From: Blastococcus saxobsidens
GTDB taxonomy: Bacteria > Actinomycetota > Actinomycetes > Mycobacteriales > Geodermatophilaceae
Reading direction: 5' to 3'
DNA: 64,000 nt
NCBI RefSeq assembly: GCF_002938435.1
Contig: NZ_POQT01000015.1
Location: 1-64,000, forward strand
Shown in pieces: positions 9,522-16,644 of this stretch. Below the pieces are notes generated by a model, which worked only from the letters and a program-made list of their open reading frames with translations, did not search any database and was not told the origin of the DNA. Position numbers and translations under genes: made by a program. Within the stretch, counting starts at the first letter, position 1; every line of letters starts with the position of its first letter.

Positions 9522-9629
9522 GGTCGGTGCGCAGGCCCTCGATGCTCCGCGACTCCTTCGTGCAGCGACGGCTCGAGCACCTTCGCCCAGGGTCGGCTTA
9601 AGCTCCACGGCGAGCCGCGACCACGGCTC

Positions 9630-9672
9630 CCGGACGAGCGGTGCCGTACCCGGTGTGCGACAAGACGGCGCC
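9630..9672 (+). promoter_or_regulatory. Guanidine-III (ykkC-III) riboswitch
   Basis: The 43 nt match the guanidine-III aptamer closely. CCGGACGAG opens it, GCCGTACCCGGT forms the middle, and GACAAGACGGCGCC closes it. The two CCGG segments form the first helix, and GCCGT (9643-9647) can pair with ACGGC (9665-9669) as the pseudoknot. It ends one base before the Shine-Dalgarno AGAGGAG (9673-9679) of an SMR exporter gene, so ligand binding should control ribosome access. Known members of this class control guanidinium exporters. Confidence 0.9.
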
Positions 9673-9685
9673 AGAGGAGCCCGTG

Positions 9686-11774: not shown

Positions 11775-12782
11775 TCAGCGGATGACGACGACGAACTCCC
11801 CGCGGGGCACGAACTCGCCGATCACCGGGGCGCCGGGGACCTCGCCGCCCAGCAGCAGGCCGCCGGAGGTCTGCGCGTCGGCCAGCAGCAGGGCCTCGTC
11901 CTCGGGCACGGCCGACAGGTCGGTGTGCGGCCGCACCCAGTCGAGGTTGCGCCGTGTCCCGCCGGACACGAACCCGTCGGCCAGCGCCGCCCGGGCGCCG
12001 GTCAGGTACGGGACGGCGGCGGCGTCGACGACGGCGGTCACGCCGCTGGCCCGCGCCATCTTGTACAGGTGGCCGAGCAGGCCGAACCCGGTGACGTCGG
12101 TACCGGCCCGGATCCCGGCGGCGACCGCGGCCCGGCCGGCGTCGCGGTTCAGTGCGGTCATCGACGCGACCGCCTCCTCCGAGACCTCGCCGGTGGCCTT
12201 CATGCGGCTGTTGAGCACGCCGACGCCCAGCGGCTTGGTGAGGCTGAGCGGGGTGCCGGCCACCGCGCCGGAGTTGGTGATGAGCTGGTCGATGTCGACG
12301 ACGCCGGTCACCGCCATCCCGTACTTGGGCTCCGGGTCGTCGATCGAGTGCCCACCGCCGACGTGGCAGCCGGCCTCCTGGGCGACCTCCAGGCCGCCCC
12401 GCAGCACCTCCGCGGCCAGCTCGGCGGGCAGCAGGTCGCGGGGCCAGCCGAGCAGGTTGACGGCCACGACCGGTGTGCCGCCCATGGCGTAGACGTCGGA
12501 GAGCGCGTTGGCCGCGGCGATCCGGCCGAAGGTGTACGCGTCGTCGACGACCGGGGTGAAGAAATCGGTGGTGAGCACCAGGCCCTGCCCGCCGGCGATG
12601 CGCACCACGGCGGCGTCGTCGCCGTCGTCGAGGCCGACGATCAGCTCGGCGGCCGGGTTCACCGGGCCCTGGGCGGACAGACCGGCGACCACCGCCTCCA
12701 GCTCACCGGGCGGGATCTTGCAGGCGCACCCGCCGCCGTGCGCGAACTGGGTGAGCCGGACTCGGGCGGGTGCGGTGGTCAC
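11775..12782 (-). CDS. selD: Selenide, water dikinase (selenophosphate synthetase)
   Basis: A 335-residue SelD, which makes selenophosphate from selenide and ATP for Sec-tRNA synthesis. The N-terminal active-site loop is HGGGCACK; the catalytic position is cysteine, so this SelD is not itself a selenoprotein. LTTDFFTPVVDD and NALSDVYAMGG bind metal and ATP, and VTGFGLLGH is conserved. GTG 12782 fits the family start (LTQFAHGGGC shortly after). It lies 23 bp downstream of the WYL gene on the same strand and back to back with selC-selA-selB. Confidence 0.96.
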   Translation of the reverse strand: MTTAPARVRLTQFAHGGGCACKIPPGELEAVVAGLSAQGPVNPAAELIVGLDDGDDAAVVRIAGGQGLVLTTDFFTPVVDDAYTFGRIAAANALSDVYAMGGTPVVAVNLLGWPRDLLPAELAAEVLRGGLEVAQEAGCHVGGGHSIDDPEPKYGMAVTGVVDIDQLITNSGAVAGTPLSLTKPLGVGVLNSRMKATGEVSEEAVASMTALNRDAGRAAVAAGIRAGTDVTGFGLLGHLYKMARASGVTAVVDAAAVPYLTGARAALADGFVSGGTRRNLDWVRPHTDLSAVPEDEALLLADAQTSGGLLLGGEVPGAPVIGEFVPRGEFVVVIR

Positions 12783-12805
12783 GGCACCGAATCTAGGCCG
12801 GACCG

Positions 12806-13429
12806 TCAGGCGAGGCCGCCGGGGAGCAGCCGGAGCCGGGGCGCCTCCGGCTGTGCGACCGGGCCGCGGGGGAGCTTCCGGCCGGCGGGATGGTTCGTGG
12901 CCGGCGGGGTGCCGATGCCCGGTAGCTCGCGCCGCTGGGCGACCTCGTCGGTCACCTGGACATCGCTGATCCGGTCCTCCCGGAACCAGCGCAGCTCCTG
13001 GCGCTCCCGGCACCAGGCGACCAGGAACCAGTGCGCCCCCTGCCGGGCGAGCAGCTGCGGCTCCACCGTGCGCTCCGAGCAGCGCTGCTGGCGGTCGCAG
13101 TAGTCGATGACCAGCACCCGCCGCTCGGCCAGCCCGCCCTCGACCCGGCGCCGCAGGTCTGCCTCGCGGGCGGCCTGGGCCGCCAGCCACCGGTGGCTGG
13201 CCAGCATGCGGGCCCGGCGGCTCGCATCGGGCTCCAGCGCGGTGAGGACCTTCTCCATCGCCGTCTGCCCGGCATCGGCGAACGGCCCCTCGGACCGGCC
13301 CGACAGGGCGGCGACGATCGCGGCCGCCTCCTCCGGGGTGAGGTCGACCGGGGGCAGCGGCGCGGGGGTGCGGTGCTCGGTGCTGGTCACGTCGGAGAGG
13401 CTGGCAGCACCCTCTGACACTTCCGGCAC
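12806..13429 (-). CDS. WYL-domain protein lacking a DNA-binding domain
   Basis: Up to 207 residues. The C-terminal half is a WYL ligand-sensing domain (LVIDYCDRQQRCSERTVEPQ, then HWFLVAWCRERQELRWFRED). WYL regulators are normally about 320 residues with an N-terminal winged helix. Here the region where it should lie is occupied by selC on the other strand, so the helix is truly absent. GTG 13429 gives the longest frame and GTG 13390 is an alternative; neither has a clear Shine-Dalgarno site. Its 23-bp spacing to selD suggests co-transcription. A role in sensing linked to selenium metabolism is only a guess. Confidence 0.72.
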   Translation of the reverse strand: MPEVSEGAASLSDVTSTEHRTPAPLPPVDLTPEEAAAIVAALSGRSEGPFADAGQTAMEKVLTALEPDASRRARMLASHRWLAAQAAREADLRRRVEGGLAERRVLVIDYCDRQQRCSERTVEPQLLARQGAHWFLVAWCRERQELRWFREDRISDVQVTDEVAQRRELPGIGTPPATNHPAGRKLPRGPVAQPEAPRLRLLPGGLA

Positions 13430-13443
13430 GTAGGCTGCCGGGC

Positions 13444-13539
13444 GGAGGCGTCAGGGTGTCTGGTGGCCCCCGCGGCCTCTAAAGCCGACGTGGTCGAGCA
13501 TCTCGGCCAGGCGGGTTCGATTCCCGTCCGCCTCCGCCA
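13444..13539 (+). tRNA. selC: tRNA-Sec with CUA anticodon (reads UAG)
   Basis: A 96-nt selenocysteine tRNA. The acceptor stem is 13444-13451 with 13528-13535 (seven Watson-Crick pairs plus one T/C mismatch), the discriminator is G13536 and CCA is encoded at 13537-13539. The long variable arm is 13491-13498 with 13502-13509 (eight pairs, three-base loop). The T arm is 13511-13515 with 13523-13527 around TTCGATT. The anticodon stem CGGC/GCCG (13473-13476, 13484-13487) encloses CTCTAAA, so bases 34-36 are CTA (13479-13481). Standard tRNASec has CTTCAAA with TCA. It lies 31 bp before selA. UAG-decoding tRNASec is reported for Geodermatophilus and Blastococcus. Confidence 0.93.
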
Positions 13540-13570: not shown

Positions 13571-14887
13571 ATGAGCGACGACCCGCGGCGGCACGTGCCG
13601 CGCACCGACACGCTGCTCGCCGACCCCCGGCTCGCCGGCGCCGGCGAGCGGCTGGGACGCGCGCTGGTCAAGGACGCCGTCCAGCGCGTGCAGCAGCGGG
13701 TGCGGGGTGGTGAGGTCGCGCCCGACGCCGCCGTCGAGGCGGTGCTGGCCGACCTGCCCCCGACGGCGTCCAGCCTCCGCCCGGTGCTGAACGCGACCGG
13801 CGTCATCGTGCACACCAACCTCGGCCGGGCCCCGCTGTCGGGGGCCGCGGTGGAGGCGATCACCGCCGCCGCCGGAACCACCGACGTCGAGCTGGACCTC
13901 GGCACCGGGCGCCGGGGACCTCGCGGCGAGGCGGCCATCGCCGCCCTGCTCGAGGCCGTGCCCGCCGCCGAGGCGGCGATCGTGGTGAACAACTGCGCCG
14001 CGGCGCTGGCCCTGGTGGCCACCGCGCTCGGGCAGGGCCGTGAGCTGGTGCTCGCGCGGGGCGAGCTGGTCGAGATCGGCGACGGCTTCCGCATCCCCGA
14101 GCTGCTGCAGAGCACCGGCGCCCGGCTGCGCGAGGTGGGCACCACGAACCGGGTCGCCCTCGCCGACTACCGCGACGCGCTGGGGCCGGACACCGGCGCG
14201 GTGCTCAAGGTGCACCCGTCGAACTTCGTCGTCCGCGGGTTCACCCGGGCCGTGCCCGTGGCCGAGCTCTCGGAGGCGCTGGCGGGCACCGGCGTCCCGC
14301 TCGTGGCCGACGTCGGGTCGGGGCTGCTGCGCCCGCACCCGGTGCTGTCCGACGAGCCGGACCTGCAGACCACGCTGGCCGACGGCGCGGACCTCGTGCT
14401 GGCCAGCGGGGACAAGCTGCTCGGTGGCCCGCAGGCCGGCCTCGTGCTGGGCCGCGCCGATCTGGTGCAGCGGCTGCGCCGGCACCCGCTCTACCGGGCG
14501 CTGCGGGTGGACAAGACGACGCTCGCCGCGCTGGAGGCGACGCTGCGCGGCCCGCGGCCGCCGGTGCCGGAGATGCTGGCTGCCGACGTCGACGGGTTGC
14601 GGGCGCGCGCCCGGGCGGTGGTCGCCCGGCTCGTCGACGCCGGGATCGACGCCTTCGCCGTGGACGCCGGGTCGCGGGTCGGCGGGGGAGGGGCACCCGA
14701 GCACCCGCTGCCCGGTGCCGCCGTCTCGCTGCCGCCGGGGTTCGCCGAGCCGCTGCGGGTCGGGGTCAGGCCGGTCGTGGGCTACCTCGAGGACGACCGC
14801 ACGCTGCTGAACCTGCGCAGCGTCCCGCCCTCGGCCGACGACGACCTCGCCGACGCCGTGCTCGCGGTGGCGGCTGCGTGGACGTGA
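13571..14887 (+). CDS. selA: L-seryl-tRNA(Sec) selenium transferase
   Basis: A 438-residue PLP enzyme that converts Ser-tRNASec to Sec-tRNASec with selenophosphate. LRPVLNATGVIVHTNLGRAP marks the start of the catalytic domain, VNNCAAALAL the cofactor site, and the PLP lysine lies in LASGDKLLGGPQAG. Length is slightly below the E. coli enzyme but complete. ATG 13571 follows selC. The stop overlaps the first possible selB start, so selC-selA-selB look like one unit. Confidence 0.96.
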   Translation: MSDDPRRHVPRTDTLLADPRLAGAGERLGRALVKDAVQRVQQRVRGGEVAPDAAVEAVLADLPPTASSLRPVLNATGVIVHTNLGRAPLSGAAVEAITAAAGTTDVELDLGTGRRGPRGEAAIAALLEAVPAAEAAIVVNNCAAALALVATALGQGRELVLARGELVEIGDGFRIPELLQSTGARLREVGTTNRVALADYRDALGPDTGAVLKVHPSNFVVRGFTRAVPVAELSEALAGTGVPLVADVGSGLLRPHPVLSDEPDLQTTLADGADLVLASGDKLLGGPQAGLVLGRADLVQRLRRHPLYRALRVDKTTLAALEATLRGPRPPVPEMLAADVDGLRARARAVVARLVDAGIDAFAVDAGSRVGGGGAPEHPLPGAAVSLPPGFAEPLRVGVRPVVGYLEDDRTLLNLRSVPPSADDDLADAVLAVAAAWT

Positions 14888-14898
14888 CCGCTCCCGGC

Positions 14899-16644
14899 AT
14901 GGACGTCATCGCGACCGCGGGGCACGTCGACCACGGCAAGTCGGCGCTGGTGCGGGCGCTCACCGGCATGGAGCCCGACCGCTGGGCCGAGGAGCGCCGC
15001 CGCGGCCTCACCATCGACCTCGGCTTCGCCTGGACGACGCTGCCCTCGGGCCGGAGGCTGGCGGTCGTCGACGTGCCGGGCCACGAGCGGTTCGTCGGCA
15101 ACATGCTGGCCGGGGTCGGATCCGTGCCCGCCGCGCTCGTGGTGGTCGCCGCCGACGACGGCTGGTCGGCCCAGACCGCCGAGCACGTCGCCGTCCTCGA
15201 CGCCCTCGGGGTGCGGCCGGCGCTGCTCGCCGTCACGAAGTCCGACCTGGCCGATCCCGCGCCGGTGGTCGCCGACGTGCGCGAGCGGCTGGCCGCCACC
15301 TCGATGGGGGACGTGCCCGCGGTGCCCGTCAGCTCGGTGACCGGGCAGGGGCTCCCGGAGCTCACGACGGCCATGGAGTCCCTCCTCGCCCGGCTGCCCG
15401 CCCCCGACGCCACGGCGCCGGTGCGGCTCTGGATCGACCGGGCCTTCACCATCAGGGGCGCCGGCACGGTCGTCACCGGGACTCTCGCCGCCGGCACCGT
15501 GGCCCCCGAGGACCGGCTGCTGCTGGGCGGCCGCGAGGTCACCGTGCGGGGCGTGCAGTCCCTCGGCGCCGCGGTGGAGCGCGCGCGGGCCACCGCCCGG
15601 GTCGCGCTGAACCTGCGCGGGGTCGCGGTCGAGGACCTCTCCCGTGGCGACGCGCTGCTCACGCCGGGCGCGTTCCGGCTCACCGACGTCGTCGACGTGA
15701 CGCTCGCCGCCGAGCCCGACGAGCGGCTGCCCGCCGAGCCCGTCGTGCACGTCGGCTCGGCCACCGTCGGTGCCCGGCTGCGCCCGCTGGACGGCACGGC
15801 CGTGCGGCTGCGGCTGGCCTCCCCGCTGCCGCTGCGGGTCGGGGACCGGTTGCTGCTGCGCGATCCCGGCGCCCGCAGGGTGCTCGGCGCCGACGTCCGC
15901 GACGTCGACCCGCCCGAGCTCTGCCGTCGCGGGGCCGCCCGGCAGCGCGGTGCGGAACTGGCCGCCCAGCCGGAGGGGGACGCCGGGGCCGCGGCCGACC
16001 TCGCCCGCCGGCGGATCGTGCGCGCGGCGGACTTCGCCGCGATGGGCTGGCCGGTGCCGGCCGGCGCCACCGAGCAGGGGCCGTGGTTGCTGGCGCCCGG
16101 GCTGGCCGACGAGCTCGCCGCCCGGGTGCCCGACGTCGTCACCCGTTTCCGGCGGCTGCGGCCGCTGGAGCCGGGACCCCCGGCGGAGGTCGTGCGCCGG
16201 GCCCTCGACCTGCCCGACGCCGACCTCGTGGCCGCGCTCGTGCGCGAGCCGCTGGTGCTGCGCGAGGGCCGGGTCGTCGACGGCGCCGCCGACCTGCCGC
16301 CCGCGGTGCAGCGGGCCGTGGACGAGATCCGTGCCCGGCTGGCCACCGATCCGTTCGCCGCCCCGGAGGCGCCGGACCTGGCCGACGCGGGGCTGGGCGT
16401 GCGGGAGCTGGCCGCCGCCGTCCGCAGCGGGCAGCTCGTGCGCGTGGGGGAGGGCGTCTACCTGGCGCCGGGGATCGACGGGGTCGCCCGGACCCGGCTG
16501 GCGGCGATCCCGCAGCCGTTCACCCTCAGCCAGGCCCGGCAGGCATGGGGGACGAGCCGCCGCGTGGCCGTCCCGCTCATGGAGTGGCTCGATGCCCGCG
16601 GTGTCACCGAGCGGCTGCCGGACAACACCCGCACCCTCCGGTAG
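14899..16644 (+). CDS. selB: Selenocysteine-specific elongation factor
   Basis: A 581-residue SelB GTPase that delivers Sec-tRNASec at recoded codons marked by a SECIS hairpin. IATAGHVDHGKSALVRALTG is G1, RRRGLTIDLGFAW is the SelB-type switch, DVPGHERFV is G3 and TKSDL is G4. The C-terminal winged-helix repeats that bind SECIS RNA occupy roughly the last 250 residues. ATG 14899 matches the family start; an in-frame GTG 14878 overlapping selA would add seven residues. In this locus SelB must work with a tRNA that reads UAG. The gene itself ends in TAG. Confidence 0.94.
   Translation: MDVIATAGHVDHGKSALVRALTGMEPDRWAEERRRGLTIDLGFAWTTLPSGRRLAVVDVPGHERFVGNMLAGVGSVPAALVVVAADDGWSAQTAEHVAVLDALGVRPALLAVTKSDLADPAPVVADVRERLAATSMGDVPAVPVSSVTGQGLPELTTAMESLLARLPAPDATAPVRLWIDRAFTIRGAGTVVTGTLAAGTVAPEDRLLLGGREVTVRGVQSLGAAVERARATARVALNLRGVAVEDLSRGDALLTPGAFRLTDVVDVTLAAEPDERLPAEPVVHVGSATVGARLRPLDGTAVRLRLASPLPLRVGDRLLLRDPGARRVLGADVRDVDPPELCRRGAARQRGAELAAQPEGDAGAAADLARRRIVRAADFAAMGWPVPAGATEQGPWLLAPGLADELAARVPDVVTRFRRLRPLEPGPPAEVVRRALDLPDADLVAALVREPLVLREGRVVDGAADLPPAVQRAVDEIRARLATDPFAAPEAPDLADAGLGVRELAAAVRSGQLVRVGEGVYLAPGIDGVARTRLAAIPQPFTLSQARQAWGTSRRVAVPLMEWLDARGVTERLPDNTRTLR

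Follow-up and report, generated by a model that had tools for sequence, protein, structure and literature searches.

UAG as a probable selenocysteine codon in a Blastococcus-like member of the Geodermatophilaceae

The soil actinobacterium of the window (the whole 64,000 nt stretch of DNA analyzed here) most probably inserts selenocysteine (Sec) at UAG codons marked by a SECIS hairpin, using a tRNA-Sec with the anticodon CUA, and reads UAG as a stop elsewhere. Judging from sequence comparisons, we put the probability of this reading at about 95%. The Sec system found in the window is that of a Blastococcus-like bacterium of the Geodermatophilaceae, a family in which the use of UAG for Sec is already known, and adds a further well-supported case to this group. 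To the published cases we add a survey of 112 genomes, three genera with a UCA tRNA-Sec, a single CUA clade in SelA, and the inheritance of a mismatch at the eighth acceptor pair of the tRNA.

ARAGORN found a single tRNA in the window, at 13444-13539 on the plus strand, with the anticodon cta and an encoded CCA. This tRNA scored 65.8 bits on the Rfam tRNA-Sec model RF01852, for which the gathering threshold is 47 (E 3.5e-11; model positions 1-91 of 91), and it has a long variable arm and G73. The anticodon CTA, read directly from the sequence at 13479-13481 on the plus strand (tRNA position 36), lies in the loop CTCTAAA and is complementary to UAG. The window sequence, ARAGORN and the Sec-aware Rfam model agree with the earlier note on this DNA, which had described a tRNA-Sec with a long variable arm, a CTCTAAA loop and a CUA anticodon. 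In the whole genome, RF01852 gave 10 matches, two of which exceeded the cut-off: the window tRNA and a 49.7-bit match that is tRNA-Ser(tga) according to ARAGORN. Three tRNA-Ser of the genome match the model, and with the tRNA-Ser match set aside, no second tRNA-Sec was found in the genome with RF01852.

ARAGORN labels the window tRNA 'tRNA-Pyl', which would make UAG a pyrrolysine codon. We consider this extremely improbable, as the variable arm of tRNA-Pyl has three nucleotides according to the accessible part of PMC7609411, whereas that of the window tRNA is long and the match to the tRNA-Sec model covers the whole model. Moreover, the tRNA gene is linked to selA, selB and selD, and three in-frame TAGs are located at redox sites of formate dehydrogenase (FDH) and peroxiredoxin-like genes.

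A full selA-selB-selD set accompanies the tRNA gene, as had been stated from the sequence; the three genes were assigned by NCBIfam equivalogs above cut-off and by Pfam. The selA gene for L-seryl-tRNA(Sec) selenium transferase (13571-14887, plus strand; TIGR00474, 415 bits; PF03841) begins 31 bp downstream of tRNA-Sec and is followed by selB for the Sec-specific elongation factor (14878-16644, plus strand; TIGR00475, 285 bits), whose product has a SelB-wing_3 domain at residues 544-584 of 588. The selD gene for selenide water dikinase (11775-12842, minus strand, start codon uncertain; TIGR00476, 388 bits) is located divergently upstream of the tRNA and encodes Cys, not Sec, in the GGGCACK motif. 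With these components, SerRS would charge tRNA-Sec(CUA) with serine, SelA would turn the seryl-tRNA into Sec-tRNA with selenophosphate supplied by SelD, and SelB would carry the Sec-tRNA to ribosomes at a UAG with a SECIS hairpin a few codons downstream. Sec would then enter a small number of oxidoreductases at UAG, namely two FDH alpha subunits and a peroxiredoxin-like UxxC protein, and UAG would act as a stop elsewhere. The window also contains a guanidine-III riboswitch aptamer (9609-9674, plus strand; RF01763, 63.1 bits), which is present in L027, L030 and L049 among 11 relatives scanned.

We searched the window's genome for PF00384, PF00578, PF20696, a UGSC pattern, and AhpD-like, FDH and peroxiredoxin-like proteins. 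PF00384 gave 7 matches distributed over 5 genes. Two of these genes, for FDH alpha on contigs C3 and C25, harbor one in-frame TAG each within a matched stretch, and the matched stretches of the other three contain none. One of the 8 AhpC-TSA matches includes a TAG and represents the peroxiredoxin-like gene on contig C18. Read codon by codon, the TAG sites are QARI-U-HSATV and QARI-U-HSSTV in the FDH genes and GDW-U-PYCC in the peroxiredoxin-like gene. When TAG was counted as a residue, the FDH proteins scored 1920.6 and 1974.7 bits on NF041513, 'formate dehydrogenase'. The pattern that the earlier note had named as incompatible with its reading, TGA and no TAG at Sec sites, was not seen: the families searched in the genome yielded three TAG genes and none with TGA at the Sec position. 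Among the families in which TAG had been expected, FDH (two genes) and the peroxiredoxin-like protein (one gene) followed the expectation and the UGSC type did not, as none of the 12 matches of the pattern TAGGGNWSNTGY in the genome was convincing; four of these 12 read U-G-S-C, in reading frames that are not gene-like. PF20696 was wrongly taken as the UGSC family, as it is UbiD_C, and it had 0 matches in the genome. Automatic annotation is apt to truncate such selenoprotein genes at TAG.

UAG keeps its meaning as a stop outside the SECIS-marked sites. In the window, 7 of 47 ORFs predicted by a crude gene caller based on frame composition end in TAG, and selB itself is among them (stop codon at 16642-16644). 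Four of the seven have a Pfam domain (selB, MOSC, ABC transporter and CoxG); the other three are devoid of a Pfam match and may be false. Since ordinary genes end in TAG, the claim that Sec is coded by UAG in this genome holds at SECIS-marked UAG only, not generally.

The same genes bear on the idea that the window tRNA is an amber-suppressor serine tRNA and that UAG stands for Ser in a selenium-free system. Any tRNA-Sec is first serylated, and the matches of three tRNA-Ser to the tRNA-Sec model would suit such a tRNA. Nevertheless, this idea seems very unlikely given the fit of the window tRNA to the tRNA-Sec model, its linkage to the sel genes and the location of TAG at catalytic Cys/Sec positions; in addition, one would expect readthrough of selB and the other TAG-ended genes from a suppressor delivered by EF-Tu.

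A hairpin with the loop GGUCU is located 11 nt after the in-frame stop codon of FDH in 36 of 36 extracted sequences (35 TAG and one TGA; L155 and L017 represent one gene). All seven of its pairs are formed in 34 of the 36 sequences, and the single TGA outgroup FDH (L140) shares this hairpin. The E. coli SECIS has the GGUCU loop as well. When duplicates are removed, leaving 25 distinct sequences, pairing holds in 98.9% of 175 cells, and two of the seven pairs show changes of both partners, in 14 cells. The covariation score of 0.261, compared with 0.112 in shuffles, was reached by 0 of 500 shuffles and exceeded those of all slid versions; the number of pairs with changes on both sides, which 35 of 500 shuffles reached, is less telling. 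For FDH, covariation thus bears out the SECIS-like hairpin just 3′ of TAG that had been proposed as a check. The folding-energy z-scores were moderately low for the two FDH hairpins (-1.82 and -1.28) and unremarkable for the peroxiredoxin-like one (-0.57), and hairpin stability by itself is not convincing. What speaks for the putative SECIS of the peroxiredoxin-like gene is conservation, in a region that is itself coding. In G153 and G077, which belong to different genera, the peroxiredoxin-like hairpin (L211 and L212) has the same one-base deletion 3′ of TAG.

We compared the anticodons with the Sec codons in other genomes. ARAGORN found a CUA tRNA near selA in 39 of 80 named loci of SelA relatives and a UCA tRNA in 27, which leaves 14 with neither; of the 41 outgroup loci, 27 have a tRNA-Sec at selA. 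Eleven of the 14 loci devoid of an ARAGORN match were scanned with Rfam, and none gave a match above threshold. Seven Saccharopolyspora-type loci (L065, L066, L078, L079, L083, L097 and L100), six of which were scanned with Rfam as well, have no tRNA-Sec detectable by ARAGORN in the fetched flanks, and the SelA proteins of this type are among the closest to the CUA clade. The CUA loci carry Geodermatophilaceae genus titles except for L031; this locus, titled 'Bacillus sp. AZ43', has a CUA tRNA-Sec and nests in Blastococcus by SelA, and its title looks wrong. In the 49 genomes behind the SelA loci that were compared for the FDH codon (L040 and 9 further outgroup loci left out), FDH has one in-frame stop: TAG in every CUA genome (38 of 38) and TGA in 10 of the 11 UCA genomes. 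The remaining UCA genome, G048, has no FDH orthologue.

Within the window's family, a tRNA-Sec was found by pattern in 108 of 112 genomes. CUA is present in 101, one of which (G107) also has UCA, and seven genomes (G115, G117, G118, G119, G121, G122 and G123, of the genera g5, g6 and g7) have UCA only. The four genomes with no match are at most 82% complete. A sequencing error or a decayed anticodon in the window, with UGA as the true code, has a negligible probability: the same loop occurs in 39 named relatives and in 101 of the 108 family genomes with a match, the target genes contain TAG, and we found no point in favor of such an error. No intermediate anticodon (UUA or CCA) was found among the matches listed from the 112 family genomes and 397 order-level genomes, two sets that overlap.

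An FDH segment was detected in 100 of the 112 family genomes; in 98 of them the match extends across the Sec codon and contains TAG as its sole stop, and the exact position of the stop was checked in 36 extracted sequences. The two FDH-bearing exceptions are G082, with a partial match, and G128, in which the region is deleted. Both FDH copies of G128, L159 on contig C4 and L160 on contig C12, are devoid of the stretch with the Sec codon and SECIS and have a common 3′ boundary; this loss is either real or an assembly artefact. The 12 family genomes devoid of FDH consist of 9 from g5-g7 and the incomplete G083, G143 and G145 (at most 81%). As the g5-g7 genomes have no FDH, the Sec codon of these UCA genera is deduced from their tRNA-Sec. 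The peroxiredoxin-like gene was found in 30 of the 112 genomes at E 1e-25, and in every one of them (30 of 30) TAG occupies the same codon position. Across the family, the FDH, peroxiredoxin-like and tRNA genes are mutually consistent on the Sec codon.

In the SelA tree of 84 rows (L062, one of 85, was dropped by the length filter), which is not a species tree, the CUA rows form one clade with a support of 100/100, present in all 200 bootstrap trees examined. SelA of the window nests inside Blastococcus, in line with the link to Geodermatophilus and Blastococcus that the earlier note had drawn. This tree is also the basis for taking the surveyed family to be the Geodermatophilaceae. Since UCA tRNA-Sec occurs in the same family, the switch to CUA appears to have happened inside it. 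With UCA in three genera and CUA in the nine others surveyed, the family offers a natural case in which a change of Sec codon can be traced.

Measured against the 8/5 acceptor branch (13 pairs) expected of such a tRNA-Sec, the window tRNA has a T/C mismatch at its eighth pair, as had been pointed out earlier. The same T/C is present in 39 of 39 CUA tRNA-Sec and in 25 of 27 UCA tRNA-Sec, the remaining two UCA tRNAs having C/T. The mismatch is therefore inherited, predates the switch to CUA and is no mark against Sec identity; the suggestion that it reflects adaptation to UAG is rejected on the same grounds. The outermost G/A pair of the anticodon stem also occurs in UCA tRNA-Sec, e.g., L069, L072 and L075. 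The anticodon loop is closed by C-G in 39 of 39 CUA tRNAs and by T-A in 27 of 27 UCA tRNAs compared, a difference that comes in addition to the anticodon itself. However, a few UCA tRNA-Sec of other families have C-G among the order-level matches listed, and thus C-G is a correlate of CUA rather than a rule.

The recoding of UAG for Sec in Geodermatophilus and Blastococcus, to which the earlier note had referred, is supported by the literature. According to the accessible passages of PMC5330540 (Santesmases et al., 2017), three Geodermatophilaceae genomes have a CUA tRNA-Sec, the discovery of UAG-Sec and of the FDH and UGSC genes is credited to Mukai et al., 2016, and AhpC of Blastococcus saxobsidens DD2 is added as a selenoprotein that has Sec-TAG together with a bSECIS. 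More broadly, UAG and some sense codons are described as serving for Sec in nature in the parts consulted of two reviews (PMC10778597 and PMC8124441). The window's genome, which is probably distinct from those published, shares with the published cases the CUA anticodon, the family and an FDH with Sec-UAG. Its peroxiredoxin-like gene is probably of the same kind as the AhpC of strain DD2, judging by the description in PMC5330540 rather than by the sequences. In contrast, the UGSC gene, one of the three UAG families given in the same passages (FDH, UGSC and AhpC), was not found in the window's genome. The UGA-Sec loci of other actinobacteria, e.g., Planotetraspora, Mycobacterium and Amycolatopsis, have the tRNA architecture in common with the window, and FDH with one recoded stop is present in 10 of 11 such genomes. 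The actinobacterial UGA-Sec systems differ in the anticodon UCA, the codon TGA and the T-A pair closing the loop (27 compared), which is C-G in the window. We found no report of UCA genera within the Geodermatophilaceae in the literature searched, which left most subscription journals outside its coverage.

Geodermatophilus sp. LHW52908 (G107), the family genome with both anticodons, has a native CUA tRNA-Sec beside selD and selA (L149), a SelA identical to that of L037, and a TAG FDH. Its contig C17 encodes an additional UCA tRNA-Sec (Rfam, 81.8 bits), from which an AhpD-like gene of 192 codons lies 315 bp away in divergent orientation (L148:1169-2157). This gene has TGA at codon 98, in the context RCFY-U-MESH (CxxU motif CFYU). 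The protein scored 112.6 bits on TIGR01926 (cut-off 81.8) and 51.8 bits, below cut-off, on NF041238, 'alkylhydroperoxidase-related (seleno)protein'. The homologues in the 19 other loci compared carry Cys where this gene has TGA, and of the 68 family genomes out of 112 with a homologue (E 1e-15), only G107 has an in-frame stop in it. The CxxU family TIGR01926 is listed as a selenoprotein family in the portion consulted of a 2026 review (PMC13188914); the G107 gene differs from other AhpD-like CxxU selenoproteins in that it adjoins its own UCA tRNA-Sec within a UAG-Sec genome.

The cassette is flanked on one side by transposase genes (IS110, HTH_38/rve and HTH_21/rve) and on the other by a short DDE_Tnp_1-associated ORF; two genes beside it have no Pfam or NCBIfam match. 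The 1-6 kb stretch of C17 has a low GC content of 61.9%, and its tetranucleotide correlation with contig C11 of G107 is 0.47, compared with 0.57-0.86 elsewhere on the contig (19 overlapping windows of equal length). Other genes on C17 include hemE, one for protoporphyrinogen oxidase and an RlmD-like gene. We found no selA, selB or selD on C17, and thus SelA, SelB and SelD of the host would have to serve both tRNAs. For the SECIS of the TGA gene, the hairpin that can be drawn is no stabler than shuffles (z 0.22). The search for a donor of the cassette gave 0 of 394 class genomes at E 1e-30, a sample with no positive control, plasmid matches all below 60% identity, and none in viral contigs.

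These features, read in a draft assembly, make it rather likely, though far from certain, that G107 uses two stop codons, UAG and UGA, for Sec at once and that the UCA cassette was imported. We found no report of both codons serving for Sec in one genome in the same literature, again with most subscription journals outside coverage. Mukai and colleagues are said to have described in 2016 an Aeromonas tRNA-Sec for a Cys codon, possibly beside a normal one, and two tRNA-Sec in one genome may by this analogy have a precedent. If the dual code of G107 holds, it would serve as a natural experiment on whether SelB ignores the anticodon and on how selenoprotein genes pass between species with differing Sec codons; by travelling together with its own tRNA-Sec, a selenoprotein gene would have a route across a code barrier between UGA and UAG species.

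Both tRNAs were also seen in G279, a metagenome-assembled genome of another family, which has a UCA tRNA-Sec plus a CUA contig, C194 (L154), of 4.8 kb with a selD 89% identical to that of the window; contamination is the more likely explanation of this pair.
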